Shown here piece after piece: positions 23,134-51,003 of a stretch of DNA of 54,973 nt. A program made the position numbers and the translations under genes. This stretch comes from a virus. The stretch's first letter is position 1; each line of letters opens with the position of its first letter. The stretch covers positions 1 through 54,973 of IMG/VR virus record IMGVR_UViG_3300025141_012176; one strand, given 5' to 3'. The notes beneath the pieces were generated by a model. The model was not told the DNA's origin. It did not search any database and was given only the letters and a program-made list of their open reading frames with translations.

Positions 23134-23140
23134 TAATCAC

Positions 23141-36879: not shown

Positions 36880-37589
36880 ATCTTTCCATCTTCCCATTTA
36901 ACTTTAAAAACACGATACTTGATGCGCATCTTGTTTAGATTATTAACTACCTGCTTTGTATTCAGCCCAGTAATCTCCCTCAGATATAAGTAAATAGCTT
37001 TCTTGTTGAAAATTTCTATATCATCTGGGTGCTCTAGAAGTATTTTGACTGCTTCATATACTTTTTTCTCGTTGTCTTTCATCCCTTCAGGGTTCCAGCC
37101 GTCCATCTCGGACTTTAGACTAGCCCAGAATTGAGTCTTCGCTGTCTCCTCTAGCCATGGATTTTGTATAGACATAAACTCTAATTCAGAATCTCTGGAC
37201 ATGTTATCCAAATCGACTTCGGTGAAGCGCTTCTTCCGCTGTACTTTTACCTTATGAATAAACCAATTTTTTGTAATGACGCTAAAATAGGAGAAGGCTT
37301 TGTATCCCTTGCTCTGATCATATTTATCTAGTATTGTAGTCAGCCAGATTTTGCACTCTTCCCTAAGATCTGTTATGTTTGACAGTGTTGTGAATTTATA
37401 TGTAAATACAATCTTGTCAACCAACTCATTAAAAGCAGGGCCGATGAGGTTGACATATAACTCTGTGCGTCTTTTTATATCTTCAGTCTTGGCATATTCT
37501 ATTATCGCATCCTCATGGACTTGAGTAAAATAAAGTCTCTTTTGCTTTTTTCTCTTTGGCTTAGATGGCAGGTTCTTCGGTTTCGACAT
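36876..37589 (-). CDS. gp55: Late-transcription sigma factor, T4 gp55-like
   Basis: A 237-aa protein. The start at 37589 is chosen because the minus strand has GAAGGAGAGGATGATAATG, with GGAG nine bases ahead; earlier starts overlap the preceding gene heavily. A Lys-rich N-terminus is followed by an RNAP-binding sigma region 2-like segment: LREECKIWLTTILDKYDQSK, then AFSYFSVITKNWFIHKVKVQ and RKKRF. This D..KG..F..Y....I.N..I...K pattern is seen in gp55 and other group IV-like sigmas. The C-terminal segment (YLREITGLNTKQVVNNLNKM) looks like a helix-turn-helix. T4 gp55 (185 aa) directs host RNA polymerase to TATAAATA late promoters with the sliding clamp; such promoters are seen in this window. 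Confidence 0.75.
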   Translation of the reverse strand: MSKPKNLPSKPKRKKQKRLYFTQVHEDAIIEYAKTEDIKRRTELYVNLIGPAFNELVDKIVFTYKFTTLSNITDLREECKIWLTTILDKYDQSKGYKAFSYFSVITKNWFIHKVKVQRKKRFTEVDLDNMSRDSELEFMSIQNPWLEETAKTQFWASLKSEMDGWNPEGMKDNEKKVYEAVKILLEHPDDIEIFNKKAIYLYLREITGLNTKQVVNNLNKMRIKYRVFKVKWEDGKI

Positions 37590-37914
37590 TATCATCCTCT
37601 CCTTCTTCAACAATCTCGTCATCAGTTTCAACTAAGGTATATATGTCCCTATAGTCCTCCAGTTGTTGCGATAAATCTTTTGCATGCTCCAGGAGGAACC
37701 CTAAAGTCTCATCTCCATAATAATTTTCAAGACTATAAACCTTCTCCAAATGACTTTCAAAGCCCTCTATCATAGTTCTTAAATCTAACATGTTGCCCGA
37801 AACAAAGACTAAGCGCCGGAGCGCCTGTCTCGTATACCATATCAATCCAACATTTAAAATGATAGAAAAGAGTGCTAGCGCTGACAAGCATATGATAATC
37901 GTATATATATTCAT
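37561..37914 (-). CDS. Small single-pass membrane protein with acidic tail
   Basis: A 117-aa protein. Residues 3-27 (IYTIIICLSALALFSIILNV, then GLIWY) form one transmembrane helix, followed by a basic RQALRR cytoplasmic-side flank and a helical region (LRTMIEGFESHLEKVYSLEN). The tail is highly acidic (EEGEDDNVETEEP). Similar N-anchored proteins are common beside gp55 in marine T4-like phages, always without known function. It overlaps the sigma gene by 29 nt and the FmdB-like gene by 4 nt (ATGA), so it belongs to one polycistronic unit. Membrane anchoring of a host-interaction or lysis-timing function is possible but not shown. Confidence 0.6.
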   Translation of the reverse strand: MNIYTIIICLSALALFSIILNVGLIWYTRQALRRLVFVSGNMLDLRTMIEGFESHLEKVYSLENYYGDETLGFLLEHAKDLSQQLEDYRDIYTLVETDDEIVEEGEDDNVETEEPAI

Positions 37915-38171: not shown

Positions 38172-38364
38172 CTTGTTCTTGACTCTCGTTATCAAACTTA
38201 ACAAGAGGGGGGTTCATTACCATGAGTCCCTCCTCAGAATTCTTAAGCTTGAATCCCTTGATCACAGGCACAATATCGCTCTGCTCCATCAAAGACTTCT
38301 GCAAAGCCATCATTAAAGCACCAACGGCTTGATCTGAAAGTTGCATATTTTGTTCTTTACTCAT
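38164..38364 (-). CDS. Small conserved T4-like phage protein
   Basis: A 66-aa protein, with the core LSDQAVGALMMALQKSLMEQ followed by SDIVPVIKGFKL and NPPLVKF. I recall a very similar small protein in cyanophages and other marine T4-like phages next to gp55-region genes; it has no assigned function. It overlaps the HAD gene upstream by 8 nt and the zinc-ribbon gene downstream by 8 nt. The amphipathic helix plus beta segment suggests a small adaptor protein. Confidence 0.6.
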   Translation of the reverse strand: MSKEQNMQLSDQAVGALMMALQKSLMEQSDIVPVIKGFKLKNSEEGLMVMNPPLVKFDNESQEQDA

Positions 38365-38668
38365 TATCTTCTCCTTTAAAAAATGCTTCTGAGCTTATGT
38401 TCTTGTCATCTACAAATAAATCATAGATTGGTTTGCCAAATTTCAAATCATGATATTTGACTCCCCATTTATCAAATTGTTTTTCTGTCACACTTCTCCA
38501 GTCAATTCCTGAGCCAGTTCCTCTGGCTGTCCAGTATGTGATTGTATTTCCTTCATCATAAAGTTGATTGATTTTCTCTATATTTTTCTTTATGGGTTCA
38601 GCTTTTGCATAGTCTCTATCATCAGGAGATACGCATATTGTCTCATCTATATCAACATATAAAATCAT
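38357..38668 (-). CDS. HAD-superfamily phosphatase, short capsule-type
   Basis: A 103-aa protein starting MILYVDIDETICVSPDDRDY; the ATG at 38668 overlaps the cytidylyltransferase stop as ATGA. HAD motif I is DIDET (D5, D7), motif II lies in YWTARGTGSG, and motifs III/IV are in GKPIYDLFVDDKN (K and DD). The fold is the compact cap-less C0 type found beside CMP-sugar synthetases in capsule and nonulosonate clusters, for example as a phosphatase acting on 9-phosphate intermediates before CMP activation. Here it follows directly after the cytidylyltransferase gene. Substrate is inferred from context. Confidence 0.7.
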   Translation of the reverse strand: MILYVDIDETICVSPDDRDYAKAEPIKKNIEKINQLYDEGNTITYWTARGTGSGIDWRSVTEKQFDKWGVKYHDLKFGKPIYDLFVDDKNISSEAFFKGEDNE

Positions 38669-39357
38669 TCTTGAGCCTGCTTTGCTTTGTATAGTGTTTC
38701 TGCTACACCGAATTGCCACTCATAGTCAACATCAAAAGTTTCTTCTTCCGGCACTACAAATAGTTCTGGGCTGTTGGGAGTGTAATCTCCCATCCAGACA
38801 TTCTCTCCCAAAGCAGGCATTGAGCCGGCATAAAGACAGTGCGCAGCCTCAAGGGTTGTACCCACCATCTTGGTGTTCAACACTGCCTCTCCTTCTGGCC
38901 ATTCTGTTATCAACTCGCCCTCTGTATTCCAAAAATAGTTTTTCTTCTCAATTACACCGAACAAACCATCAGAATCAGTTTGTAAATAGTGCCTTATAAA
39001 TTTATCAATAGTCTCTGTTGATAACAGACTGCAACAAGCATTGAACATCAAAACATACTTATAAGGAAGCTTATCCCACCATTCGAAGATTTCCGTCATC
39101 GGGGTACCCTCTGACTTGGCAGATTTTTCACTCCTCTCGAAAACATTGATTCCACGATTCTTGCCAATAGAAATAAGCTCTGGCTCGTGCGCTGCCAAAT
39201 AAAAGTTTTCTTTTGGAAGCACCTTGCTGTCCAAAACCTTATCTATGGCAATGTCTGTCAATGTACTACCAGCAAATGGACGAATCATCTTATTGGGGCA
39301 GCGTTGTGATCCCAGTCTAGCTTGAACGATCAAGCAAATATCTTTGATATTCTTCAC
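38665..39357 (-). CDS. Cytidylyltransferase, NeuA/PseF/SpsF-like
   Basis: A 230-aa Rossmann-like nucleotidyltransferase. The start is a GTG at 39357 with CAGGAG six bases upstream. The N-terminal signature is ICLIVQARLGSQRCPNKMIR, the nucleotide-binding loop of acylneuraminate cytidylyltransferase-like enzymes (usually PARGGSKG.PKKN; the QARLGS-R-P-K form is typical of the SpsF branch). EGTPMTEIFEWWD and VLMFNACCSLLSTETIDKFI follow in the expected places. The likely reaction is activation of a nonulosonic acid with CTP to give the CMP-sugar donor. It overlaps the preceding gene by 41 nt. Specificity cannot be read from sequence. Confidence 0.7.
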   Translation of the reverse strand: MKNIKDICLIVQARLGSQRCPNKMIRPFAGSTLTDIAIDKVLDSKVLPKENFYLAAHEPELISIGKNRGINVFERSEKSAKSEGTPMTEIFEWWDKLPYKYVLMFNACCSLLSTETIDKFIRHYLQTDSDGLFGVIEKKNYFWNTEGELITEWPEGEAVLNTKMVGTTLEAAHCLYAGSMPALGENVWMGDYTPNSPELFVVPEEETFDVDYEWQFGVAETLYKAKQAQE

Positions 39358-40183
39358 CTAAAACTCCTGTTAAAACTTGTGTGCTTATGTTGCACGGATG
39401 TCCGTGCCCTAAATTTCTAAACTTAACATCTTTTCCAATGTCATGCAAGAGATAATCCCATAAAACTAAGAATTGTTTAGAATATTTTTCAATTATTTCT
39501 TCTTCTTTATTGGAATTTTCTATCGCGCCAGTTTGATCTTTCTGTTTTTGAAACGCATGATAGTGTTTGCCAGAGAGTGGTGTCGGGATATAACCATCCA
39601 TCCCCGCTATGTGTATCTCTAAGGCGCCCAACAGTGTTGCGATGACAACCAATCTGGGTATGGCACCTATTTTTGAATGATATCGAGTGTGTGCCCAGAA
39701 AACCCTATCACCATATTTTGCTTTGAATTTTTTCATCTCTTTTGGATCTCTGCCGCAGTTTTCAAAACAAAGCATAGTGTTATGTTTTTCTAAATACTCA
39801 TGTAATTCTTTGTTAGAAAAACGAACTTCATCGCCAATATTAGCCAGAGAGACATTAATGCCTTTAACTCTATCATTCATGAAAAAATGATTTGTTGAGA
39901 AGACAAAATCATAATCATCTGCCTCCCAGTTGACTTCAGTTGTCGTTGGACCTGCTCCCAGAATTAAAATCTTCGAGCCTTTAAATCTATCTAGTCGACT
40001 GTTCACCTGATGAATAATTTCATCATCTACCAATGTCTTTCCTCCTCCTAAGTTGGGTACCAATATTTGCTTGACATAATCAATGCCTCTGCGTCGATTG
40101 TTGGCAAAAGTGGCGGCAGGCGAAATAAAAGAAGAGTCTGTTATAGAACTATTAAACCAATTTAGCTCTTTAGTCCATATCAT
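39317..40183 (-). CDS. DUF115/Maf-like sugar-transfer or pterin-kinase-like protein
   Basis: A 288-aa protein. Residues 68-90 (FKGSKILILGAGPTTTEVNW) have the glycine-rich GxGP(S/T) loop of the DUF115/6-HMP-kinase-like (MptE) superfamily. The Maf flagellin glycosyltransferases that attach pseudaminic or legionaminic acid belong to this group. Later segments VFSTNHFFM, VFWAHTRYHSK and IPRLVVIATLLGALEIHIAG, then MDGY, fit the second Rossmann half. The presence of a related domain in the 677-aa neighbour and of nonulosonate-making enzymes makes a transferase role plausible. It sits 24 bp downstream of the formyltransferase gene. A scaffold or other sugar enzyme cannot be excluded. Confidence 0.55.
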   Translation of the reverse strand: MIWTKELNWFNSSITDSSFISPAATFANNRRRGIDYVKQILVPNLGGGKTLVDDEIIHQVNSRLDRFKGSKILILGAGPTTTEVNWEADDYDFVFSTNHFFMNDRVKGINVSLANIGDEVRFSNKELHEYLEKHNTMLCFENCGRDPKEMKKFKAKYGDRVFWAHTRYHSKIGAIPRLVVIATLLGALEIHIAGMDGYIPTPLSGKHYHAFQKQKDQTGAIENSNKEEEIIEKYSKQFLVLWDYLLHDIGKDVKFRNLGHGHPCNISTQVLTGVLGEEYQRYLLDRSS

Positions 40184-40207
40184 AGCTTCCCCTCATTATT
40201 TTTCATT

Positions 40208-40858
40208 TTATTCTCCTAATTCTGCTAATTTAATTAATAATTTCTTACCATCTGATGTCCGAATGAACGCATTCGGATATGGATCTCCAAGCATGCGGAT
40301 CTTGTTGTAAAGGTGTTCGCCAGTTTGATTTTTAATCTCATCCAAAGAAATCTCGCTCTGTTCTGGCTTTCTCCTAGAAAAGTAAGTCGCCTTGCTGTCG
40401 TCCTGCTTTTCTGGCTGCATGCCTTCTCTAAGAATTTTAACAGTAAGAGATGTACCAATCTTTGTTAGTCTATCAAAAATTTCTGTTATTGTCCCAGAAA
40501 GAGATAGGGGGCCCTGTGCTACAACATCTCCTGCATCGTATTCTTCTCCAATAACAAACAGTGTTACCTTAGAGTTAACAACCCCTCTGATAATTTGATT
40601 CTGAATTGGGCTGCCTCCGCGGAACTCAGGAAGGGGAGAGGGATGAAGCATGATTGATTTATAATTTTTAAAAATCTCAGGCTCTATTTTCCAACTCCAT
40701 CCGTAAAAAAGAACAACATCCGGATTGTAATCCATAATAATTTTCTTGTCATATTTTTCTTTGGAGCCTATTACCAGTACTTCGTGTTCCGTATTTATCA
40801 AAAGATGCTCATAGATTCTTAGAGCCCAAGCACGATAGCCCACACATGCCACCCTCAT
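40208..40858 (-). CDS. Sugar N-formyltransferase-like protein
   Basis: A 216-aa protein of the methionyl-tRNA formyltransferase N-domain fold. The start at 40858 overlaps the deacetylase stop as ATGA with GAGGG seven bases ahead. The central motif is IMLHPSPLPEFRGGSPIQNQ, matching the HxSLLPxxRG loop with catalytic His; YDAGDVVAQG supplies the catalytic Asp. The usual Asn two residues before the His is Met here, as in a subgroup from O-antigen clusters. Such enzymes transfer formyl from N10-formyl-tetrahydrofolate to an amino sugar. Placed next to a PIG-L deacetylase, it may re-acylate an amine freed by that enzyme. A truncated tRNA-formyltransferase is unlikely because there is no C-terminal OB domain. 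Confidence 0.7.
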   Translation of the reverse strand: MRVACVGYRAWALRIYEHLLINTEHEVLVIGSKEKYDKKIIMDYNPDVVLFYGWSWKIEPEIFKNYKSIMLHPSPLPEFRGGSPIQNQIIRGVVNSKVTLFVIGEEYDAGDVVAQGPLSLSGTITEIFDRLTKIGTSLTVKILREGMQPEKQDDSKATYFSRRKPEQSEISLDEIKNQTGEHLYNKIRMLGDPYPNAFIRTSDGKKLLIKLAELGE

Positions 40859-41535
40859 TTGCATGCCCTCAATATCCTGAATGCTTCTGAGAATTCATTA
40901 CCGCTTTGCATTCCTCGAAACTTACTCAGGACTTCGATTCCACTATCGTTCCTAGGGTGAGGCCAGGGATTACCTTCTGTGTAATATTTTCTAAATGCCG
41001 AACATTTATTGTCGATGTCTTTTTCTGTAACGCTAAAAAACAAGTTGGGAGAAAAGCTATCTTTAAATCCCCACTCTGAACTGCTCAAGACTTCGTAACA
41101 CAAAACAGTTGCAACGCCGGAACCTAGTGTACTGGGACGGGTAGCAATCACCGTTGCATCATGAACCTTTCTGTGGTCTATGTTGCTATCCCCATCCCAG
41201 TGCGTAAAGACAGTATCTGGCTTAAATTCTTTCACATGCTTCTCTATAATTTTATTTATTTCGATCTGTGGTACCTGATCCAGCTTTCCACAAGGAAGAT
41301 TGTTGAAAAAAACCTGTGTCACTCGTAGTTCGTGCAAGGCATCCAATGCGGAATTATTTCTCTTTGTCAACTCTGCGCCATAATCTTCGCAGTCTGTATC
41401 CGAAAACCTACAGCTTGTACCCTCCGCAATAAAAACTACCCTGAACTCTGTTTGAGACTGAAATCTGCTCATGGTTGCGCCGCATCCCAAGATATCGTCA
41501 TCAGGGTGCGCTGCTATTATTAATGCTCTTTTCAT
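40855..41535 (-). CDS. PIG-L/LmbE-type N-acetylsugar deacetylase
   Basis: A 226-aa protein with the signature ALIIAAHPDDDILGCGATMS; HPDD provides zinc ligands and the general base. The second site DGDSNIDHRKVHDATVIATR contains the H-x(3)-H pair (HRKVH). PIG-L family enzymes are zinc-dependent de-N-acetylases acting on GlcNAc-linked substrates, mycothiol precursors or antibiotic intermediates; some are found with NeuB in surface polysaccharide clusters. It overlaps the GNAT gene by 35 nt upstream and the formyltransferase by 4 nt downstream. The pair suggests exchange of an N-acetyl for an N-formyl group on a sugar; that is inference. Confidence 0.8.
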   Translation of the reverse strand: MKRALIIAAHPDDDILGCGATMSRFQSQTEFRVVFIAEGTSCRFSDTDCEDYGAELTKRNNSALDALHELRVTQVFFNNLPCGKLDQVPQIEINKIIEKHVKEFKPDTVFTHWDGDSNIDHRKVHDATVIATRPSTLGSGVATVLCYEVLSSSEWGFKDSFSPNLFFSVTEKDIDNKCSAFRKYYTEGNPWPHPRNDSGIEVLSKFRGMQSGNEFSEAFRILRACK

Positions 41536-42055
41536 AATCCCCCCTTAACATAGACAAGATATAAGAATCATAGTATTTACCATCATAATAATAATGTTGC
41601 CTATGACATGCGTCGACAGAAAAACCTCTTTCTTTAAAGAAATCTAGTTTCTTATTGTCTATTTCATAAATCTCTGCCCATACCTTGTTCATGTTTAAAA
41701 AATGAAAAGCCCTCTTTAAAGCCAATTCAAAAGCATCAGGGGCGTACTTCTCGTCAATCCATGCAGCGTCATGTCCGATGTAGAAGTGCAAGTCGCAATG
41801 ACGATTTAACCAATCAATATAAGTGAACCCTGTTACCCCTATGGGCATGCTCTCTTTTTCTTGATCAGTTATCATAAACATTTCGAAATTATTATCGAAT
41901 GTCATGTCTTCATACCACTTATTCTTTTGCATCATTGAGAATTCTCGATATTCCCTAAAGTACTTTCTTAGGTTCTCATTGTTTCTCCACTTATGCAACA
42001 GCGGCAGATCTTCTTTTTCTATGGCACGGATGGCTATTTTGTTATATTCTACCAC
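41501..42055 (-). CDS. GNAT-family N-acetyltransferase (PseH-like)
   Basis: A 184-aa protein beginning with GTG at 42055. The GNAT fold is recognisable from IAIRAIEKEDLPLLHKWRNN (the RxxxxxDxxxxxxWRNN start typical of RimJ/RimL and PseH-like enzymes), the substrate/CoA region HCDLHFYIGHDAAWIDEKYA and the C-terminal DNKKLDFFKERGFSVDA (the NKxxxxxxxxxGF motif). PseH acetylates a 4-amino-dideoxy sugar nucleotide with acetyl-CoA in pseudaminic acid synthesis. The gene overlaps the SAF-containing synthase gene upstream and the deacetylase downstream, which favours a sugar substrate over a protein one. Confidence 0.7.
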   Translation of the reverse strand: MVEYNKIAIRAIEKEDLPLLHKWRNNENLRKYFREYREFSMMQKNKWYEDMTFDNNFEMFMITDQEKESMPIGVTGFTYIDWLNRHCDLHFYIGHDAAWIDEKYAPDAFELALKRAFHFLNMNKVWAEIYEIDNKKLDFFKERGFSVDACHRQHYYYDGKYYDSYILSMLRGDYEKSINNSSAP

Positions 42056-43116
42056 TTAAAATGCTCTCTGCGAAGATAATCTCCATGGATAATGTTCTTG
42101 TTAATCTCCAGTCCGGTCAAAGAATTTATGTCATTTACAGATATCGCATCGGGCGGACAAGGGCGCTGGAATTGGACAATAGATCTATCAAATGCTTCTC
42201 CTTGAGAGACATCTCTTGTTACTCTGATTGCTCTTCGTTGTAAAACCACAGTCTCTTGTTCGTTTGTTTGGACTTCTTTTGTGCCGTGTCCAATTGAAGA
42301 CTCTAACATCCTAGTGTCCTCAACCATTCTACTCCAGGTGTTTGGGTCCATTGAAAATGGATGGTCTGGGCCGGCTCGACTAGTGTCATCTGTAAAGTGT
42401 TTCTCAATCACTCTCGCGCCAAGAGCGATGGCGCCTAGGACAGTAACATGGCCATGAGTGTGATCGCTGAGGCCCAGAATCATGTTGGGATACATTGAAC
42501 GATATGTTTTCAGCACATTCAAGTTGATGTATTTAAGATTCTCCGAATCAGCAGTATAGTTTGTATTGCACTGCATAAGCACAAGCTGAGAATTGTGCTT
42601 CTGGATAATGTCAACCGCTGACTGCACTTCGCCTATCGTGCTAGCGCCGGTGGCCAAAAGAGTAGGCTTGCCCTTCTTTGCAACCTTCTCAAGCATCTCG
42701 TGCCACGCCGCATCTCCACTTCCTATCTTAAACGCCGGGACATGTTCATCTAGATAGTCAACCAAATCTAAATCATATGGCGTAGAGAAAAACGCAATTT
42801 CGAGTTCTTTGCATAACCCCTTAAGTTCCAGCGTCCAATCTAGCGGAACTTCAGCATCTTTATATACTTCAAAGATAGTCTTGTCCCAACTAGACTGGTG
42901 GCTGAACTTTCCGCCTAGGTTTTTAAATCCATAATCGCTTACATATTTTGTAACATCATGGTGCTGAAATTTAACGGCATCAGCGCCGGAATCTTTAGCT
43001 AGCTTGATTAGATCTTTTGCTCTTTGAATGTCTCCATCGTGATTTGCTGCAATATCAGCGATAAAGTAAGTCTTAGAGTCTTTTGAAATTAAGTCATTTC
43101 CTATTTTTATAATCAT
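42049..43116 (-). CDS. neuB: N-acetylneuraminate/pseudaminate synthase family enzyme with SAF domain
   Basis: A 355-aa full-length NeuB/PseI-type protein. The TIM-barrel part starts YFIADIAANHDGDIQRAKDL; ADAVKFQHHD, AFFSTPYDLDLVDYL, FKIGSGDAAWHEMLE, LLATGASTIGEVQSAV, LMQCNTNYTA, LGLSDHTHGH and VIEKHFTDD are in canonical order with metal and PEP-binding residues. The C-terminal 65 residues (QRRAIRVTRDVSQGEAFDRS onward) are the SAF/antifreeze-like domain that caps the partner active site. The enzyme condenses PEP with a 6-carbon acetamido sugar to a nine-carbon nonulosonic acid. It overlaps the SDR gene upstream and the GNAT gene downstream. Sialic, legionaminic and pseudaminic specificity cannot be told apart by eye. 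Confidence 0.88.
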   Translation of the reverse strand: MIIKIGNDLISKDSKTYFIADIAANHDGDIQRAKDLIKLAKDSGADAVKFQHHDVTKYVSDYGFKNLGGKFSHQSSWDKTIFEVYKDAEVPLDWTLELKGLCKELEIAFFSTPYDLDLVDYLDEHVPAFKIGSGDAAWHEMLEKVAKKGKPTLLATGASTIGEVQSAVDIIQKHNSQLVLMQCNTNYTADSENLKYINLNVLKTYRSMYPNMILGLSDHTHGHVTVLGAIALGARVIEKHFTDDTSRAGPDHPFSMDPNTWSRMVEDTRMLESSIGHGTKEVQTNEQETVVLQRRAIRVTRDVSQGEAFDRSIVQFQRPCPPDAISVNDINSLTGLEINKNIIHGDYLRREHFKW

Positions 43117-43870
43117 TTTCTAACATCTCCATTCCTTCTTTAAAGGAAAATAATTCATCAGGCATCTCTAAAACAAGTTGCTGACGCGGTGTTGACACTG
43201 GCCTAACCAACGAAGGATCTAAGTCCATTCTTTTTGCCACTTCTATGAGAAAATTATATTTGCTCATAATCTTATCGGAAGCGACAGTACACAGTGATTT
43301 TGAGAATTTCGAACTGTCGGTGCACTCTCTCTTTATAAATTTAGATAACTGACCAACATGTACAGGGTTGAAAAAACTATTCTCAAACCCATCGATTGGC
43401 TCTTTATTAGATAGCTTATTTATTGCCCACTCTGCAAGATTCGAAGGGCCAAAAAGATTTGTGCGGATTACTAAATTTCCTTCACTAGATAATGTTTTCT
43501 CTTCTCCAGCCTTCTTTGTTTCAAAATAAACACTTTTTTTATAATCATCTTTGTTCCACACAGGAATTGTTGAAATATAAATCAGTTTATCACAATGTTT
43601 TTTTAGCGTGTCGACGATTGTCGCATGCAGAGCAAGGCTTTCTTCCGCATTATCTTCGCATGCTCTCAAATCTGTGATGGCTGCCGTATGTATGATGATA
43701 GAATAGAATTTTCCAGATAGCCATTTTCTAGCTTCCTCTAGGTTCGTCAAATTCAAGTGCTCGCGGCCTTTTATCGTCTCGACGGGCATGCGCCTAAAGT
43801 CTTCAGACAATCTTGAGCCCAACATGCCATTTGAGCCGGTAATTAAGATCTTTCTATCCCTCAATGCCAA
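43094..43870 (-). CDS. RmlD-like SDR sugar reductase/epimerase
   Basis: A 258-aa extended short-chain dehydrogenase. RKILITGSNGMLGSRLSEDF holds the GxxGxxG NAD(P)-binding motif, followed by IIIHTAAITDLRACEDNAEE and a truncated active-site region (IYISTIPVWNKDD, then VYFETKKAGEEK, the Y-x-x-x-K pair). The RmlD/dTDP-4-dehydrorhamnose reductase branch is closest. Start codons are TTG: either 43870 or, with a better spaced AGGGG, 43864. It overlaps the dehydratase gene, so it probably reduces or epimerises the 4-keto sugar made by that enzyme. Confidence 0.7.
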   Translation of the reverse strand: MALRDRKILITGSNGMLGSRLSEDFRRMPVETIKGREHLNLTNLEEARKWLSGKFYSIIIHTAAITDLRACEDNAEESLALHATIVDTLKKHCDKLIYISTIPVWNKDDYKKSVYFETKKAGEEKTLSSEGNLVIRTNLFGPSNLAEWAINKLSNKEPIDGFENSFFNPVHVGQLSKFIKRECTDSSKFSKSLCTVASDKIMSKYNFLIEVAKRMDLDPSLVRPVSTPRQQLVLEMPDELFSFKEGMEMLENDYKNRK

Positions 43871-44825
43871 CCCCTACCTCAATAATTTTTCTTAAAGATG
43901 ATACATTGTTGTCGAGATGCAGGGAAGAGTTATACTCCAAACCCTCATATCTTTTGTCATATGTATGTTCTTTGTTTGTGTATTGAGGAGTAACCACCAT
44001 TAAGGTTTCATCAACTTCGTAGGTAAATGGAAGCTCTGTTTTAGCCAGCATATCCTCATGAATCTTTTCGCCGGGACGCATGCCGAGGACTACAGTGTCT
44101 GCATTTTCAACGCCAGTCATCTCCAATACCGCATCAAGTACCGTCTCAAGTTTATAAGAGTTTATCTTCGGAATAAATACCTCACCACCTTGCGTGGTTT
44201 CTAATGCAAGCAGAACAGTGTCGACTGCATCATCAAGCGTAAACAAGAACCTACTACAATCAAAAGATGTGATTGGAATTTGCTCATTATTTCTTACTTT
44301 TTCCATCCACAAAGGAATAAAAGAGCCACGACTTGCAATGACATTTCCGTATCGAACGGATGCGAAAACTGTGCTGCTAGAGTTGTAATCAAAGTTTGTA
44401 AATATTCTTTCGGCGATAAACTTACTGGAGCCATAAACATTTATTGGCTGGCATGCTTTGTCAGTAGAAATCAGCATACATTTCTTGACATCGTTTGCCA
44501 AAGCTGCTGTTGCAACATTTTGAGATCCCATGACATTTGTTTTTATACATTCATCTGGATGAAACTCCATATCGTCAACCCTCTTGAGGGCTGCTGCATG
44601 GATTACATAATCTGGCTTATGCAACCTCATTGTTGTGTCTATCTTCGTAAGATCTCGGACATCCCCAATCACTCTAATAATATCAGGATCAGAACCAAAG
44701 GCAAGCGCCTGCTTTGCCTCGTCCCGACTGTAAACGATTATCTTCCATCCCAGATTTTTAATCTTCTTAATCAAAGCCTTGCCCAGAGAGCCAGTGCCAC
44801 CGGTTATTAATATCTTCTTTCTCAA
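43854..44825 (-). CDS. UDP-sugar 4,6-dehydratase-like (PseB/CapD/FlaA1 family)
   Basis: A 323-aa extended SDR starting at a TTG (44825) with GGGGG just ahead. KKILITGGTGSLGKALIKKI carries GxxGxxG. VIGDVRDLTKIDTTMRLHKP, VIHAAALKRVDDMEFHPDEC, KTNVMGSQNV and LISTDKACQPINVYGSSKFI are signature blocks of the PseB/FlaA1 polysaccharide-biosynthesis family (D-K-A plus Y-x-x-x-K), then VRYGNVIASRGSFIPLW. Such enzymes dehydrate UDP-GlcNAc to a 4-keto-6-deoxy sugar, the first step towards pseudaminic and related sugars. Located after the short NeuB-like gene and overlapping the next SDR. Confidence 0.82.
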   Translation of the reverse strand: MRKKILITGGTGSLGKALIKKIKNLGWKIIVYSRDEAKQALAFGSDPDIIRVIGDVRDLTKIDTTMRLHKPDYVIHAAALKRVDDMEFHPDECIKTNVMGSQNVATAALANDVKKCMLISTDKACQPINVYGSSKFIAERIFTNFDYNSSSTVFASVRYGNVIASRGSFIPLWMEKVRNNEQIPITSFDCSRFLFTLDDAVDTVLLALETTQGGEVFIPKINSYKLETVLDAVLEMTGVENADTVVLGMRPGEKIHEDMLAKTELPFTYEVDETLMVVTPQYTNKEHTYDKRYEGLEYNSSLHLDNNVSSLRKIIEVGVGIEG

Positions 44826-44826
44826 A

Positions 44827-45657
44827 TTACCCCCTAAGTTTTTTGCGTATGGGCTCTTCGCCCTCGGTTACCTTTTTAATTCCATCGCCATAAGCCATTT
44901 CTAATTCCCTAATGCCTTTGACTAGCTTAATTAGCCCTTGTGGCTCTATGGATGACAAATGATCAGAGCCCCACATTGTTCTGTCGAGAGTTATGTGCCT
45001 TTCAATTATAGATGCCCCTAGGTAGATTGCGGCGACAGAAGTGCCCAATCTGAACTCGTGCCCACTATAGCCCACTTCGCAGCCGTAGCGAGCCTTCAGG
45101 GTGCCTATACAGGATAGATTCAATTCCTCTAGTGGTGCTGGATAAGTTGAATTGCAATGCAACAAGCTAAACTCTGCCCCTTCTTCTCTCATCCACCGAA
45201 CTGCTTCGTCTGTTTCGCTCATTGTGCTCATGCCTGTAGAGAAAATAATCTTTTTGCCTGTTCTGGCTGACGCCCTCATTAGCTCTTCGTTTGTCATCAT
45301 AGCAGACGGAAGCTTCAAAAAAGGAATGTCGTACTGCATCAAAAACTCAAGACTGTCAATGTCCCATGGAGAAGCAGACCATGCAATGCCTCTGGATATG
45401 CAATATGCATCAATTTCATCATATTCTTCTTTGCCGAATTCGACACGATATTTGTAGTCCAAGTATGTCATTCTGCCCCATGGAGTATCCCTCATTACAC
45501 CCTTTTGGTGTTCCGGAACACATACATCGGGATTTCTTTTCTGGAACTTTACAGCATCACAGCCAGAGACGGCAGCAATGTCTATAAGTTTTTTAGCATT
45601 TTCCATGGAGCCGTTGTGGTTAATTCCAATTTCTGCTATGACATATGTTTTTTTCAT
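44827..45657 (-). CDS. neuB: NeuB-family synthase without the SAF domain
   Basis: A 276-aa NeuB-like TIM barrel: YVIAEIGINHNGSMENAKKL, CDAVKFQKRNPDVCVPEHQK, WSASPWDIDSLEFL, FLKLPSAMMTNEELM, IIFSTGMSTMSETDEAV, LLHCNSTYPAP, VGYSGHEFRLGTSVAA, IIERHITLDRTMWGSDH. It ends at EEPIRKKLRG and therefore lacks the C-terminal SAF domain seen in the 355-aa neighbour. The barrel motifs are intact, so catalysis is likely, but the dimeric cap would be missing. A short NeuB branch of this length occurs in some environmental genomes. The two synthases are only distantly alike, so they are probably not recent duplicates. Confidence 0.82.
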   Translation of the reverse strand: MKKTYVIAEIGINHNGSMENAKKLIDIAAVSGCDAVKFQKRNPDVCVPEHQKGVMRDTPWGRMTYLDYKYRVEFGKEEYDEIDAYCISRGIAWSASPWDIDSLEFLMQYDIPFLKLPSAMMTNEELMRASARTGKKIIFSTGMSTMSETDEAVRWMREEGAEFSLLHCNSTYPAPLEELNLSCIGTLKARYGCEVGYSGHEFRLGTSVAAIYLGASIIERHITLDRTMWGSDHLSSIEPQGLIKLVKGIRELEMAYGDGIKKVTEGEEPIRKKLRG

Positions 45658-47687
45658 AATTGTACTCTCGGTATTTCTTCGTAAAGAGAACTTTTATCTG
45701 ATGCAAGCTCAAGATGTACACCGCGTTCCTTTAACCATTTATAAAGATGCTCTGACGCTTCTCTGGTTGAATCGATTTCCCAATCTAGAATATCTCCTCG
45801 ATTGTGTAAAGACTCGGTTGTTCCAAAGAAATGTTCATAATCATCCAGTTCTTTAGGGTTATTATAACACAGATCCCACCCAAGTGCAACTATTTTCTTT
45901 ACTCCAAGGTGCAGCGCTGCGTATAAAACTGTCTCATACATTATGCCCGGGCCGCAGGGGCGCTCTATTTGATTGTCCAAAGTATATTTTTCAAAGTCTT
46001 TTGTCACAGAAAGAAACTCATTGTCTATCTCCGTTCTGATTGGTACCTTGAAAAACAAATCTGATTTTTGGAATCTGCTCCAGCGTTGCCCGTGAGAATA
46101 ATTGCTGCTAGCGATAGATATTGGCGACATTTTATCATATATGTAGTGCTCCCAAAGTGGAGGCTTCGTTGGTGCCGGCATGTTTGCACAGTTAAAGAAA
46201 TGAAAATCCGTAATGTATGGGAATTTTTCATATGCTTGCTTTACAGAAAAAACCAATTTGTTCTTTAGCATGCTCCTTAAAAGCTCTGGATCGTAATCTG
46301 ACAGAGATGGACCGCATGAGAGTATATAACAAGTTTCTCCCTCAAAAGAATCTTTTAGCAGCGCTACCTTCTCGTCAAGAGTTGGAAGCTTTCGAAGCCT
46401 AGATTTGATATCAAGCCGCTTCTCCGTGATGGCGCTGGTGCCAGACATAGTTGTGTGCACAAATGTTTCATCAGATTTCTTAGCAGTCTCATATATCATC
46501 TCTCCTATCTTTAGCGGAGAGTAGTCTCCGGAAAGAACATTGTCACTGCCGGACTTGCCCATGTCTTCCAGTTCTTCTCTTTTGTTCTTCCATAGGTTGT
46601 ATGCTTTTCTTAGCTGCTTTCTTGTGCTATTAACATGACACTCATACCATTCTCCATCATTCTCGTATGGCACAACACCGAAAAGACATGTGTCCCAGTG
46701 TCCGTCTACAAGAAATGCTGCATCATCATGAACAAAGCCCGTGTGTCCTCCTTTCTTCGGCACCAGCACCGGCAATGCTTTAGTCAGCGCCTCAGCGATT
46801 GGCAAGCCGAAGCCTTCACCCCTAGAGGTTAGCGCAAAAACATCAGAGTTCTCGTATAGCCAATTAATATTCTCAAAAGGAAGGAATCCTGGTATTAAAA
46901 TAATATTGTTGTCAACAGGATCCGCATATTTCGGGTTAACCATGTCATGTTTGTAATACCTGATTTCATTCTGCATTGCTTCGACATTATGTGTTCCACT
47001 AGCATATGCTTTAAGTATCAGAATGGCATCGTCTTCTTTTGTGAACTCAGCAGCCCAGGCTTTGAGAAGGATATCAAATCCTTTCCTTTTCGTCCACTGA
47101 GATATTGACAATACTGTAAACTTATCATCAAGCTTGACAGGCAAGTTTAATTCCTTTGGTGGCGTCATATTTTCCTCAATAACATGAGGAATAACTGTCG
47201 TTTCGCAGCCGGCTGCTTTTTCAAATGGCTCTCTGTTCCATTCGCAAGGAACAATTACTTTATCAGTGTGATAATATTCATACACCTTTTTCCATTCCCA
47301 AGGAACAGAATCGGTTTCCCAAGTGCATATGCTTATATTCCTATCTGATGCATTCTGTAGTTTTAGAACTGACGGACTGCAATTTGGAGATGGACGAAAC
47401 TTGTCATCAGCAAATGTCAAAAGAGGCGTTGGCATGTGCCATAAAAAAGTATATCTTTGTCGAACCATTTGATCAATATCATGATCATTCTGGAACTCGT
47501 ACTTCTCAATAAGCGCCAACTCCTCCGAAGACAGGTTGTCAGACTCTGTTATGACGGTAGAGTATATTTTCAACTCAAAAGCATCTGGATTCTCTTTTAG
47601 ATATGCATCCAGAGCCTTAAGATAACCTCTTGCTGCAACAGCGTATCCTGCTGTATCCCTAAATTGGGCACAATATACTATTCTCAT
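45654..47687 (-). CDS. GT4 glycosyltransferase fused to a DUF115/Maf-like domain
   Basis: A 677-aa two-domain protein. Residues 1-420 are a GT-B, GT4-type glycosyltransferase: FTVLSISQWTKRKGFDILLK is the mid-domain link and TSRGEGFGLPIAEALTKALP holds the E-x7-E donor-binding motif. Residues 450-677 are a DUF115-like domain: GETCYILSCGPSLSDYDPEL with the GPSL loop, FFNCANMPA, RPCGPGIMYETVLYAALHLG and IVALGWDLCYNN. DUF115 includes Maf proteins, which transfer nonulosonic acids to flagellin Ser/Thr. The fusion suggests two sequential sugar-transfer steps on one acceptor. It overlaps the next gene by 4 nt. Confidence 0.75.
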   Translation of the reverse strand: MRIVYCAQFRDTAGYAVAARGYLKALDAYLKENPDAFELKIYSTVITESDNLSSEELALIEKYEFQNDHDIDQMVRQRYTFLWHMPTPLLTFADDKFRPSPNCSPSVLKLQNASDRNISICTWETDSVPWEWKKVYEYYHTDKVIVPCEWNREPFEKAAGCETTVIPHVIEENMTPPKELNLPVKLDDKFTVLSISQWTKRKGFDILLKAWAAEFTKEDDAILILKAYASGTHNVEAMQNEIRYYKHDMVNPKYADPVDNNIILIPGFLPFENINWLYENSDVFALTSRGEGFGLPIAEALTKALPVLVPKKGGHTGFVHDDAAFLVDGHWDTCLFGVVPYENDGEWYECHVNSTRKQLRKAYNLWKNKREELEDMGKSGSDNVLSGDYSPLKIGEMIYETAKKSDETFVHTTMSGTSAITEKRLDIKSRLRKLPTLDEKVALLKDSFEGETCYILSCGPSLSDYDPELLRSMLKNKLVFSVKQAYEKFPYITDFHFFNCANMPAPTKPPLWEHYIYDKMSPISIASSNYSHGQRWSRFQKSDLFFKVPIRTEIDNEFLSVTKDFEKYTLDNQIERPCGPGIMYETVLYAALHLGVKKIVALGWDLCYNNPKELDDYEHFFGTTESLHNRGDILDWEIDSTREASEHLYKWLKERGVHLELASDKSSLYEEIPRVQL

Positions 47688-48955
47688 AACATCACTATGT
47701 TCTGTGATGCATCCTGTGCCGGAGCTTGTGCCTCCTCTGTCTGCAAGGCATCAACGAAGTTCTCATACATTATTTCATCTGTAAAGTTTGTAGTTACATA
47801 CTTCTTTAGCTTCTTGGCTCGGTTTTTTGCCTTGCTATATGATTCTTTTACATTTCTCATTTGCTCTTTAAAGCTAGACTCTTCAGGGTAACACCACATT
47901 GATCCGTTCTCTATGACTCCCTCCCAAAGCGCATCTTTTTGTACGGGGCCCAATGTGAATTCTACTCTCGAAAATAATGGGCGGGTTTTAACTTTTCCGG
48001 TTTTCTTATCCTTTAGTGGTGCATATAAAAAGTCGTTCTGCCCACTCCAGCCTGGTGCAATGACAGGCAAGCCGTAATAGGCAGCCTCAAAGATTGGCAG
48101 CCCGTAGCCCTCGCCGTGAGCGATGGTTACGAAAGCCTTAATCTTTTCATGTTGGTATAAAGCCGAAAGCTCTTCTTCTGACATGTTTCCATGAAGAAGA
48201 TATACCTTACACTTGCTATCCTTAAAGTTTTCCATTATCTGCCTGATGTTCATTTCCGTATGGTTTTTATCCATAAGACAATTTTTAGCCAGACTGGTTT
48301 TTAGCACCAAACCAACTTCTTCGTCCTTAAATTCCTGCATAAACCAAGCAATTGTATTTGGAAGATTCTTTCTTGGGCCAAACTGTGCAATTGCTAAAAA
48401 ATTAAAATCATAATCTAGATTTAGCTCAAAGTCTTCTTCTGGCTTCTTTGCTCGGACAGGATAATTAACGACACTTATCGGAGTTTCGCTTTTTAGTGTA
48501 ACCTCTTGCCCTGTTTCGGGATGAGGTGCCTTATATACAGTGTTCATGAACACCTCTTTAGAATGATTGGATACAACAATAATTTTATCCATGTGATTGC
48601 AAGCCTCCAGCCAGACTGGTGCAGCCTTTGTAGTCTCTATCCCTGCTGTATATCCAATGTTGATGGGTGCCATATTTTGGAACTCGTTAGGAATCGTTAT
48701 CTGCAAAGATATATCATACTGCGCGCCTGTGTGGGGTGACTGTTCGTAGTCTCTGGTTTTAATACACAGGGAGTCGATCCATGCATGCTCTGGTGTATCA
48801 TCCTGTATCCAACTAGTTTTGCCCCAATTGATTGGATGCACATATATATCATACATATGCTGATGTTCTCTAAGCGCTCTTAGTGCGAACCTAGCCTGCT
48901 CTCCATATCCTGAGCGCGTTAGTACGGGCCCATGAACTATTATTTTCTTTCTCAT
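47684..48955 (-). CDS. GT4-family glycosyltransferase
   Basis: A 423-aa GT-B enzyme. The N-terminal domain starts KIIVHGPVLTRSGYGEQARF, with the SGYG acceptor-side loop common in phage and marine bacterial GT4 proteins. FLAIAQFGPRKNLPNTIAWF begins the C-terminal domain, and IAHGEGYGLPIFEAAYYGLP carries E-x7-E. An Ala/Gln-rich tail follows (EEAQAPAQDASQ). Retaining GT4 enzymes use nucleotide-sugars to build oligosaccharides. It overlaps genes on both sides by 4 nt (ATGA), so three glycosyltransferases are co-translated. The acceptor, whether virion protein, DNA or host glycan, is unknown. Confidence 0.82.
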   Translation of the reverse strand: MRKKIIVHGPVLTRSGYGEQARFALRALREHQHMYDIYVHPINWGKTSWIQDDTPEHAWIDSLCIKTRDYEQSPHTGAQYDISLQITIPNEFQNMAPINIGYTAGIETTKAAPVWLEACNHMDKIIVVSNHSKEVFMNTVYKAPHPETGQEVTLKSETPISVVNYPVRAKKPEEDFELNLDYDFNFLAIAQFGPRKNLPNTIAWFMQEFKDEEVGLVLKTSLAKNCLMDKNHTEMNIRQIMENFKDSKCKVYLLHGNMSEEELSALYQHEKIKAFVTIAHGEGYGLPIFEAAYYGLPVIAPGWSGQNDFLYAPLKDKKTGKVKTRPLFSRVEFTLGPVQKDALWEGVIENGSMWCYPEESSFKEQMRNVKESYSKAKNRAKKLKKYVTTNFTDEIMYENFVDALQTEEAQAPAQDASQNIVML

Positions 48956-50226
48956 GCTATCTCCTTAAGTGTCCAGTTTTTGTATAGTTTCCTGTCTTTC
49001 CATGAGCCATGTTTTTCATAAACGCTATCCATAAGCTCTACCCATTTCTTTGCAAAATCTTCAAAATTATAATTCTTTCTTACATGTCCCAATCCCTTTC
49101 TGCTAAGTTCTCTCCTATCTCCTTCTGGCATATTCATCATCTTTGTCAAAGCATCCATAAAATCTTCTTTATTGATTCTGTCTTCAAAGATATATGGTAC
49201 CTGCTGAGAACCAATGAGAGCCTTGGACGATGGCTCAATGCCTATTCCGAACCACTCTTCGCCGTCTGTGAGTTGCTCCTTCAGTCCACCAGTCATGGTG
49301 GCGATGATTGGAGTGCCGGTGCTCAATGACTCTAGAGTAGCCAATCCAAACCCTTCGGCATCAGAAATGTTAATAGTGCAATCTGCCATGTTATAAAGAT
49401 TATTCAGATACTGAGGAGGGAGCTTGTCGATCGACAACATAAGCTCTTTGTTCGTTAACCCAAACTTCTGACATAAATGCACTAATGGCTGCCCATGCGC
49501 ATCGTTAGGATCAGTATGCATGACTAGCCTTGCTTTATCTCTACCAACTCTATCCAAGAATTCGTTAAACCAATATATCAAAGTTCCAGATTGTTTTCTT
49601 CTTGCGTTGCGATTGTTCCAGAAAAAAGTGAACCTAGGTTCAATATCGTCCATAGACTCAACCCCAAACAGATCAATCATGAAAGGCTCTATGTCTTCTT
49701 TCTGGAGCGGGTGAAAGAACTCTGGATCAATTGCGTGAGGGACATAGTGCCTTTCCACATCTGGGGCGACAATTGAAACAATATCGTCGGTAACTTTAGA
49801 TATCGTTGCGACAACATCATTAGATTGATAAAAAACTTTATTGAATTCTGGTGCTGGATAATTATCCCAGACATGATAATATACCATTGGTACATTCGCT
49901 CGGATTTCGTCTTCTATTTCCCACAGCCATCCCCAAAATCTAGGATCCGTCATGAACCATAGGATATCTGGTTTTTCGGAGCGCAGACAGGAACGGATAT
50001 GTTCCTGTGTGCCATAATTGTCTACTGGCAATATTCTCCAATCATCCATATATGGCTCAACCTTTGACATCTCATAATTTTCATGGCTGATTGCCCCTCC
50101 GAAGCTAAGTACTTCGTATCTTCCTGTCTTCAGCAAAGCTTCGATAACATATTTTGTTTGCGTCCCAACCCCAGAAGGAGACAGAGGATGATCAGAAATC
50201 GTTAAAATTTTAATTTTTTTATTCAT
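48952..50226 (-). CDS. GT4-family glycosyltransferase
   Basis: A 424-aa GT-B protein beginning KILTISDHPLSPSGVGTQTK. A second-domain entry FTFFWNNRNARRKQSGTLIY and the donor motif ISDAEGFGLATLESLSTGTP (E-x7-E) identify family 4. It differs clearly from the 423-aa neighbour (SPSGVGTQ versus SGYGEQ loop), so it probably adds a different sugar. A Lys-rich C-terminus (SWKDRKLYKNWTLKEIA) may touch nucleic acid or membrane. It is first in the glycan block, 12 bp after the nuclease gene. Confidence 0.82.
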   Translation of the reverse strand: MNKKIKILTISDHPLSPSGVGTQTKYVIEALLKTGRYEVLSFGGAISHENYEMSKVEPYMDDWRILPVDNYGTQEHIRSCLRSEKPDILWFMTDPRFWGWLWEIEDEIRANVPMVYYHVWDNYPAPEFNKVFYQSNDVVATISKVTDDIVSIVAPDVERHYVPHAIDPEFFHPLQKEDIEPFMIDLFGVESMDDIEPRFTFFWNNRNARRKQSGTLIYWFNEFLDRVGRDKARLVMHTDPNDAHGQPLVHLCQKFGLTNKELMLSIDKLPPQYLNNLYNMADCTINISDAEGFGLATLESLSTGTPIIATMTGGLKEQLTDGEEWFGIGIEPSSKALIGSQQVPYIFEDRINKEDFMDALTKMMNMPEGDRRELSRKGLGHVRKNYNFEDFAKKWVELMDSVYEKHGSWKDRKLYKNWTLKEIA

Positions 50227-50238
50227 ATTTTCCTTCTT

Positions 50239-51003
50239 TTAAGTACAGTGTACTGTTTTGTAAAATTCACACTTTTGGCAGGCTAAACGATTCTTGACGC
50301 AATTGCCGGCTTTGATATTTTTGACAGCTTTTGTCAAGAGCGTCAAAGCTCTCTTTGTTTTTAGCTTGCCGCTAGTGACTCTAAAAAATTCAACTTTGTT
50401 CTTCTTTGCTGTTCTTTTCAGGAGAGCAAAGTGAGTCTCGATATTGTCTGGATCTATGCCGTGTTTTTTGGCATAGAAATGCTTGTATAGCGTTAACTGA
50501 TAAGTTGTCATAGGATCCGATTTTCGTCGAGAATCCCACCCCCAAGAGCAAGTCTTCCAATCAAATATATGATATTTGCCATCAGAAGTTTTCACGACTC
50601 CATCGATGAAGCCCTTGAACATATATCCCTCTTCATCTGTTGGCACCATTAGATTTTCTTCAGCGCTGATTACCTTGTAATCTTCAAAATATAAATCCAA
50701 AGCTCCTTCAATCTCTGGGAGGAGACTTAAGCCTTGCTCTCCCATGTCATCAATCAGCTTCTGATCCATTGGCACGCCATCTTCCTCCAGTCCATCGACA
50801 ATTTTGATAAAGCTGGAAAGAAAAACTTCTTCAGGGTTCCTGCGTGACTTTAATAAGATGCCCTCACAAACATTATGCACCGCATTGCCAAACGCAGTGA
50901 ATTCATTGCCGACGAAACCCTTAAGGTTATCAATCTTGATTAATTTGTGATAATAAGCACATTGATCCCAGAGTTTAAGCTCTGAAAAAGATATATGTGA
51001 CAA
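50239..51003 (-). CDS. Cas4/AddB-like Fe-S PD-(D/E)XK nuclease
   Basis: A 254-aa protein, with TTG start at 51003 and AGAGG six bases upstream. The PD-(D/E)XK core is complete: H43 in GNAVHNVCEG, D134 in FKGFIDGVVK, then D148-x-K150 in HIFDWKTC, and a QLTLYKHFYAKK helix. Four Cys, C15 near the N-terminus and C235/C242/C245/C253 at the end (spacing CxxC then x7 C), form the expected 4Fe-4S cluster of Cas4/AddB/RecB-like exonucleases. These resect DNA ends; in phages they serve recombination or degradation of host DNA. There is no cas1 or CRISPR array nearby. Confidence 0.85.
   Translation of the reverse strand: MSHISFSELKLWDQCAYYHKLIKIDNLKGFVGNEFTAFGNAVHNVCEGILLKSRRNPEEVFLSSFIKIVDGLEEDGVPMDQKLIDDMGEQGLSLLPEIEGALDLYFEDYKVISAEENLMVPTDEEGYMFKGFIDGVVKTSDGKYHIFDWKTCSWGWDSRRKSDPMTTYQLTLYKHFYAKKHGIDPDNIETHFALLKRTAKKNKVEFFRVTSGKLKTKRALTLLTKAVKNIKAGNCVKNRLACQKCEFYKTVHCT

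Follow-up and report, generated by a model that had tools for sequence, protein, structure and literature searches.

The stretch analyzed here (hereafter the window) is the whole of the 54,973-nucleotide IMG/VR virus record IMGVR_UViG_3300025141_012176 (positions 1-54,973), a fragment of a genome in which a block of predicted nonulosonic (nine-carbon) acid and glycosylation genes, the island, lies between phage genes. A first-pass annotation made from the letters alone had counted twelve genes in this island, and the list of open reading frames (ORFs) corrects this to 13, contiguous on the minus strand between 38,357 and 50,226 (Table 1). The tight packing claimed at that stage is borne out, with 10 of the 12 junctions overlapping and the other two being gaps of 1 and 24 bp. 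Because the longest ORF was used in each frame, some true starts, e.g. those of the phosphatase (HAD) and the cytidylyltransferase (CMPtr), may sit further in.

The enzyme families initially named were confirmed by Pfam, namely two NeuB synthases (a longer NeuB1 and a shorter NeuB2s lacking the SAF domain), a Polysacc_synt_2 dehydratase, an RmlD, a GNAT acetyltransferase, a PIG-L deacetylase, a formyltransferase, a cytidylyltransferase, and three GT4 glycosyltransferases. Both NeuBs exceed the Pfam NeuB cut-off (240.4 and 254.6 bits vs 22.1), as CMPtr does that of CTP_transf_3 (46.1 vs 22.6 bits). The best PDB match of CMPtr is the CMP-N-acetylneuraminate (CMP-Neu5Ac) synthetase 1qwj (1.3e-4), and it misses the PseF equivalog cut-off (33.6 vs 205.7 bits). 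HAD and the stand-alone protein at 39,317-40,183 had no Pfam match. The CMP-activated nonulosonic acid first proposed is still the likely product.

Table 1. Genes of the island and its two conserved flanks, with the matches on which each assignment is based
Feature	Position	Strand	Matches and remarks
HAD, small HAD-type phosphatase, proposed nonulosonate (NulO)-9-phosphate phosphatase	38357..38719	-	PDB best match 9iqw (capsule biosynthesis protein), 2.6e-13
CMPtr, CMP-nonulosonate cytidylyltransferase	38665..39357	-	PF02348 6.7e-12; overlap at 39317
GT42-like CMP-nonulosonate transferase (putative), stand-alone "DUF115" protein	39317..40183	-	Profile and AlphaFold2 (AF2) fold
FmT, sugar N-formyltransferase	40208..40864	-	PF00551 6.5e-12; TIGR00460 6.8e-24, below cut-off
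PIG-L-type N-deacetylase	40855..41535	-	PF02585 5.1e-21
GNAT acetyltransferase, PseH-like	41501..42055	-	PF13302 1.3e-15; TIGR03585 63.1 bits vs cut-off 93.1
NeuB1, nonulosonate synthase of SAF-bearing length	42049..43116	-	PF03102 2.4e-71
RmlD-like SDR, proposed 4-keto reductase	43094..43870	-	PF04321 7.4e-22
PseB-like UDP-N-acetylglucosamine (UDP-GlcNAc) 4,6-dehydratase	43854..44825	-	PF02719 (Polysacc_synt_2) 4.1e-81; TIGR03589 275.2 bits vs cut-off 407.75
NeuB2s, SAF-less NeuB, proposed nonulosonate-9-phosphate synthase	44827..45657	-	PF03102 1.1e-75
GT4 fused to Maf/sialyltransferase-fold domain, 677 amino acids (aa)	45654..47687	-	PF00534 7e-12; modelled stretch 45654-46415
GT4b glycosyltransferase	47684..48955	-	PF00534 5e-6
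GT4c glycosyltransferase	48952..50226	-	PF00534 9.2e-12
PD-(D/E)XK exonuclease, conserved island flank	50239..51003	-	PF12705 1.1e-12; phrog_69 3.3e-18
gp55-like late sigma factor, conserved flank on opposite side	36876..37631	-	phrog_234 2e-4 (weak); synteny

The window is probably that of a marine T4-like virus of bacteria, and the phage setting originally described was recovered around the island, with a gp6-type baseplate gene (1.2e-19), a weak gp55-like sigma (2e-4), PhoH, and an exonuclease. Its own T4-like evidence consists of the baseplate and the weak sigma, while of the 15 related viral records tested, 11 carry a T4-type Gp23 capsid gene, a count that applies to the relatives only. 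Searching IMG/VR with the two NeuBs yielded 23 loci for NeuB1 and 80 for NeuB2s, the latter being the best 80 of 134 confirmed stretches that code a relative of the SAF-less enzyme. Such a search for the block in other phages had been suggested from the start, and many contigs indeed carry it between the same phage genes, in the recurring order exonuclease, GT4c, GT4b, (GT4-)Maf, SAF-less NeuB ... HAD, sigma. The slightly lower G+C of the island (0.39-0.42, against 0.41-0.49 in the structural genes) could point to an assembly chimera or bacterial contamination, which the first-pass annotation had named as a possible refutation. This explanation is almost certainly wrong because the gene order recurs: identical junctions are found in many contigs of other metagenomes whose NeuBs are 29-83% identical to those of the window, and the phage flank at 50-53 kb has an equally low G+C.

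For gene counts, 105 loci were reduced to 82 by dropping two copies of the window and 21 same-contig or near-identical loci, these being picked out visually by their contig names and equal scores. All were fetched through NeuB, and NeuB counts are biased because it served as bait; 59 of the 82 hold GT4c, and 17 hold GT4c together with sigma. Every one of these 17 loci (among which L059 differs in gene order) encodes GT4c, GT4b, a SAF-less NeuB, CMPtr, and HAD, and 16 encode a Maf-like and 16 a GT42-like domain. Other genes were less constant: SAF-type NeuB in 11, PseB in 9, GNAT in 8, RmlD in 6, PIG-L and formyltransferase in 4 each, and a DegT aminotransferase in 3. Across the 59 GT4c loci, GT4b was found in 58, SAF-less NeuB in 57, CMPtr in 56, GT42-like in 52, and SAF-type NeuB in 32. 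The island is composed of a conserved core and a variable second module (PseB, RmlD, SAF-type NeuB, GNAT, PIG-L, and formyltransferase). That module content varies among relatives would also be expected if the module were, partly or wholly, idle cargo acquired from hosts. We consider this very improbable, given that all 13 island frames are open, that the gene order of the cassette is kept in several relatives, and that the NeuB1 of the two nearest relatives shows 74% identity. Separately, the 383 unlabelled island ORFs grouped into 94 clusters, with Pfam run on about ten proteins. One cluster of 58 members (cluster 0, e.g. L077:18476-19327) matched a PhyH-like dioxygenase through a single member, and no counterpart was recognised in the window.

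The core synthase NeuB2s has no C-terminal SAF (antifreeze-like) domain. The protein stops where the barrel stops, and relatives scoring at least 320 bits have tails of at most 6 residues past it. Its closest bacterial relatives are from Neomarinimicrobiota (67-69% identity). In a quick maximum-likelihood tree of 71 rows (no bootstrap, plus-strand frames only, two phage rows incomplete, SAF-bearing cell rows limited to 9 of the 17 listed and additional Bacteroidota rows to 3 of 6), phage and cell SAF-less NeuBs, NeuB2s among them, formed one clade of 44 rows with a Shimodaira-Hasegawa-like approximate likelihood ratio (SH-aLRT) of 99, and the window NeuB1 fell among 24 SAF-bearing rows (SH-aLRT 95). 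The motif KFQKR is present in 77 of 81 phage and 96 of 99 cellular SAF-less NeuBs, against 1 of 43 and 0 of 30 SAF-bearing ones, the cellular counts being biased as 80 cell loci were fetched partly by the pattern VKFQKRNP. The top PDB match of NeuB2s, the 290-residue NeuB-like chain 6ncs, was not used as proof that a barrel suffices, its aligned part lacking KFQKR and the chain possibly being a cut construct.

Gene neighbourhoods follow the same division. Within flanks of about 1.5 kb, a KdsC-like phosphatase accompanies 28 of 33 SAF-less NeuBs and 0 of 28 SAF-bearing ones. These 61 NeuB loci were taken from ten genomes plus two phylum surveys (best 30 matches at most in each, mainly the top match per genome); in the Bacteroidota survey alone (L218-L238), 19 of 21 SAF-less NeuBs have such a partner. 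The count covers L191-L255 of loci L191-L267. Four of these 65 (L205-L208) are unclassified and, with L256-L267, are weak matches resembling KdsA or DAHP synthase, and two of the 33 SAF-less rows (L251, L255) are low-scoring and outside the clade. The KdsC model was built largely from loci adjoining SAF-less NeuBs, and in addition picked up a KdsC-like gene close to a KdsA-like one (L205); it matched 60 of the 80 cell loci, 34 of the 60 being titled Chlorobi and kin (35 such loci). Fisher values of 2e-12 for the neighbour count and 1.9e-4 in the 82-locus survey are indicative only, the sequences being related.

This partnership suggests that the core product is probably a 9-phosphorylated sugar, e.g. 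Kdn-9-phosphate (Kdn-9-P). Among other KdsC-family proteins, a Chlorobium partner matches the HAD 3e81 (1.6e-27), the Bacteroides Kdn-9-P phosphatase. A route comprising a Kdn-9-P synthase that uses mannose-6-phosphate (Man-6-P), a phosphatase, and a CMP-Kdn synthetase is known (PMC6200933). Taken together, the SAF-less clade, the KdsC partners, this route, and the 3e81 match point to NeuB2s as a nonulosonate-9-phosphate synthase. In the phages, HAD would fill the phosphatase role after NeuB2s. It tends to travel with the SAF-less NeuB, being seen in 44 of 68 loci that have one (within 300 bp in 10 of the 44), standing directly after it in marine virus AG-345-L05, and, in L059, staying with NeuB and CMPtr apart from sigma. 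Judging from sequence, the core route of SAF-less NeuB and HAD is probably phosphorylated and Kdn-9-P-like.

The Neomarinimicrobiota relatives offer an observation of their own. In L111, L112, L114, and L115, genes for a SAF-less NeuB, a cytidylyltransferase, a KdsC-like HAD, and a Kdo-transferase-like protein are consecutive (Pfam-checked in L111). Across five Neomarinimicrobiota genomes (metagenome-assembled, and possibly incomplete), a KDO-8-phosphate (KDO-8-P) synthase was found in 0 of 5, and a Kdo-transferase domain with NeuB in 5 of 5, and NeuB may replace KdsA in the lipid A core of this group. A role of the SAF-less NeuB as a general substitute for KdsA was not supported, as among five other genomes three have a KDO-8-P synthase over the cut-off and one has it just under (311.6 vs 314). 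That SAF-less NeuBs tend to have a phosphatase neighbour and SAF-bearing ones do not provides a rule that can be tested directly in bacteria as well.

The synthase of the second route, NeuB1, aligns over residues 5-353 with the solved full-length PseI 8h2c, but the Pfam SAF model was not matched. Among 29 loci with PseB and the longer NeuB, nine have RmlD only, 16 DegT only, three both, and one neither, with the limits that the RmlD model possibly catches other SDRs and that RmlD-only loci came through the NeuB1 query. RmlD and the DegT aminotransferase largely replace each other, and not strictly by NeuB type, since L010 combines a NeuB1-like synthase with DegT. From family chemistry, reduction of the 4-keto group where an aminotransferase would otherwise act would leave the matching carbon of the nonulosonate with a hydroxyl and not an amine. 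PIG-L is found in 11 listed loci, always with a formyltransferase (11 of 11), which suggests that an acetyl group is removed and a formyl group added. No PseC-type aminotransferase and no NDP-sugar (PseG-type) hydrolase was recognised by Pfam or NCBIfam among the 13 ORFs of this fragmentary genome. The sialic, legionaminic, or pseudaminic acid-like biosynthesis initially proposed is retained as to its likely CMP-nonulosonate product, now with two NeuB routes, the second of which does not form a complete pseudaminic or legionaminic pathway within the 13 ORFs. A glycine/phenylalanine position is reported to separate Neu/Leg from Pse synthases (PMC7371886). Elsewhere in phages, NeuB-SAF proteins are fused to a cupin or a xylose-isomerase-like barrel (L031:12459-13970 and L039:13290-15188).

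Two further domains are candidates for the transfer step. When a 42-sequence profile was built from the stand-alone "DUF115" protein, the top nine PDB sequences were sialyltransferases (Cst-I, Cst-II, and a Pasteurella enzyme), at 7.6e-8 to 4.9e-5 over whole sequences and about 2e-4 for the best single stretch among the matches listed. The AF2 model of this protein (pLDDT 94.9, pTM 0.93) aligns with Cst-I (Z 12.3, rmsd (root-mean-square deviation) 3.7, 190 aligned) and Maf (Z 10.2, rmsd 3.9, 187 aligned), and also matches Cst-II. By sequence and predicted fold it resembles sialyltransferases of GT42, the family of Cst-I and of Cst-II, whose catalytic histidine is His188. An identity as the pterin kinase MptE was rejected: the fold is tied, but the profile gives E 0.11 vs 7.6e-8 for sialyltransferases. 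The C-terminal part of the 677-aa protein scores 29.7 bits with an MptE-like/DUF115 model, under its cut-off of 34.6, and the domain model (pLDDT 82.7, pTM 0.86) is closest to Maf 5mu5 (Z 11.4, rmsd 4.1, 193 aligned), followed by MptE (Z 9.9, rmsd 4.2, 165 aligned) and Cst-I (Z 9.6, rmsd 4.6, 196 aligned). Of the two DUF115/Maf-like domains named in the first-pass annotation, the one fused to GT4 thus stands by fold, and the stand-alone one is better described as GT42-like. Both predicted structures fit transfer from a CMP-nonulosonate. The GT4-Maf fusion of the window corresponds to two separate genes in L026, L028, and L056. In another setting, the 484-kb uncultured phage L110 (LR756508.1) encodes three GT29-type sialyltransferases (PF00777), a family best known from animals, at 19247-19876, 21978-22658, and 22639-23319 (1.6e-26, 7.9e-32, and 2.1e-30), which surround a SAF-less NeuB and have a small HAD close by.

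As to the acceptor, simple hydropathy predicted at least three membrane spans in 0 of the 313 ORFs of the 17 loci (two small ORFs have two), with 6-11 spans in five control proteins of bacterial loci, and no flippase, polymerase, or export machinery was recognised among these ORFs. This favours glycosylation of a virion protein in the cytoplasm over polysaccharide export. The most likely acceptor is a virion protein, synthesized in that cytoplasm and the simplest soluble choice. One candidate is a 788-aa protein of the structural region with 23.5% Ser+Thr. The O-glycosylation of flagellin with pseudaminic acid in the cytoplasm (PMC7591256) is a bacterial precedent. Alternatively, the same CMP-nonulosonates could modify glycans on the infected cell's surface by way of host lipopolysaccharide or capsule transferases, thereby blocking superinfection or hiding the cell. 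Surface glycans typically involve GT4 enzymes and nonulosonates, Cst enzymes act on lipooligosaccharide, and of five marine Neomarinimicrobiota loci with the nearest cellular SAF-less NeuB, four have it in a row with a Kdo-transferase-like gene. We nonetheless regard this use as less likely, as Maf glycosylates protein in the cytoplasm and the hydropathy survey, simple as it is, revealed neither polytopic proteins nor a flippase or polymerase. It is far less probable that the sugars are placed on phage DNA or another intracellular molecule as a nuclease shield, even though T4 glycosylates its DNA and GT4c scores slightly over the cut-off of the Pfam model "GT4 in conflict systems" (27.9 vs 26). 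The general GT4 model outscores it on the same protein, the scan of window proteins, which cover part of the genome only, turned up no base-modifying gene, and we know of no transfer of a CMP-nonulosonate to DNA.

With moderate confidence, we thus interpret the island as a sialylation-type system, encoded by the phage and acting in the cytoplasm, whose sugar cassette is exchangeable and whose likeliest acceptor is a virion protein. In this scheme, whose substrates and order of steps we infer, the SAF-less NeuB would condense phosphoenolpyruvate (PEP) with a hexose-6-phosphate, either Man-6-P or N-acetylmannosamine-6-phosphate (ManNAc-6-P), into a nonulosonate-9-phosphate, HAD would dephosphorylate it, and CMPtr would convert the free nonulosonate into a CMP-sugar. 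The GT4 enzymes would start short glycans, onto which the Maf-like and GT42-like domains would add the nonulosonate of the CMP-sugar. In the variable route, PseB would dehydrate UDP-GlcNAc and RmlD then reduce the 4-keto group, the SAF-type NeuB1 would form another nonulosonate, and its N-acyl groups would be swapped by PIG-L, formyltransferase, and GNAT. More speculatively, a widespread marine T4-like lineage could sialylate its own virions, a fixed set of core genes supplying and attaching a Kdn-like sugar through the phosphorylated route and an exchangeable cassette contributing a further, N-formylated nonulosonate, which would give each phage a coat of its own, similar to bacterial O-antigen variation; this benefit to the phage we put forward as a tentative possibility. 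The core sugar may copy the lipopolysaccharide core sugar of the host itself.

Several points weigh against this interpretation. The system is a prediction from genes and models, and 0 of 10 island proteins scanned with NCBIfam reach a curated equivalog cut-off, so that the exact sugar cannot be read from family names. Unlike the partners of bacterial SAF-less NeuBs, the island HAD is not KdsC-like, and it lies about 6 kb from NeuB2s; among the 59 GT4c loci, HAD and Maf-like are found in only 40 each, some stretches ending early. A second CMPtr is present in only 1 of 17 loci, such that a single enzyme must mostly serve both synthases. For the stand-alone transferase candidate, MptE ties with Cst-I in fold (Z 12.4, rmsd 4.2, 187 aligned) and leads the Foldseek list together with human sialyltransferases, and the GT42 kinship is one of profile and fold, above the residue level. 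The Maf-like domain had no significant match among PDB sequences (best 0.2). Finally, steps that have no island gene may lie elsewhere in the genome, of which the window is a fragment, or be supplied by the host.

The remainder of the window adds little on regulation. T4-type late promoters (TATAAATA) number 5 against 3.07 expected, with 0 in the island, and timing cannot be inferred from them; sigma-70 and terminator scans of the window were near background, and a tRNA scan found none. The product of 652-1869 had no match in a search of phages. Next to the exonuclease, 51351-52106 encodes a zinc-metallopeptidase-like protein with a HEFAH motif, just under the cut-off of an M34-type Pfam model (25.3 vs 27.4), whose relatives adjoin the exonuclease in many loci, and 54150-54443 encodes a small SET-domain protein (PF00856, 3e-11), here in a phage. 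Among the related records with Gp23, the match is split in two in 7 of 11 (G131, G132, G133, G136, G138, G140, and G143), as with an inserted domain.

If true, phage sialylation would extend the known kinds of particle modification, account for a large variable locus of marine phages, and provide a source of enzymes for rare nine-carbon sugars. Of 50,697 GenBank phage records, both NeuB queries matched the same 3, one of which carries the label of a bacterium, Moritella viscosa; at 0.001, neither NeuB had a match in any PHROG family. In the open-licence PMC literature, no paper on phage nonulosonate synthesis was found among the matches listed, the nearest of which concerns phage-encoded enzymes that convert bacterial pseudaminic acid (PMC12053666).

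Among known phages, Flavobacterium phage immuto and Microcystis phage Mel-JY01 carry a PD-(D/E)XK nuclease gene followed by GT4c-like, GT4b-like, and then glycan genes, like the start of the island, but the glycan genes behind are others, no NeuB was matched in the 31-kb stretches, and GT4c identity is 31-34%. The pseudaminic and legionaminic acid pathways run PseB-PseC-PseH-PseG-PseI-PseF. With these pathways the island shares PseB-like, PseH-like, PseI/NeuB-like, and PseF-like members, whereas it differs by its RmlD-like reductase, its additional PIG-L and formyltransferase, the missed equivalog cut-offs, and the lack of a recognised aminotransferase and PseG-type hydrolase among the 13 ORFs. 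With the GT42 enzymes Cst-I and Cst-II, the stand-alone protein has sequence profile and fold in common, at a level above single residues. The C-terminal domain of the 677-aa protein shares the fold of Maf flagellin glycosyltransferases (5mu5) but is fused to a GT4 domain and has no significant sequence match to the solved Maf. With the Kdn-9-P route of Bacteroides thetaiotaomicron and Prymnesium parvum (PMC6200933), the island has in common the set of NeuB-type synthase, phosphatase, and cytidylyltransferase. In bacterial loci the phosphatase adjoins the SAF-less NeuB, whereas the island is phage-encoded, has a small non-KdsC HAD, is joined to transferases and GT4s, and has a predicted activity. 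Overall, we judge the island to be a variant of known nonulosonate systems in a setting for which the literature matches listed gave no report, such sugar synthesis being hardly known in cultured phages.

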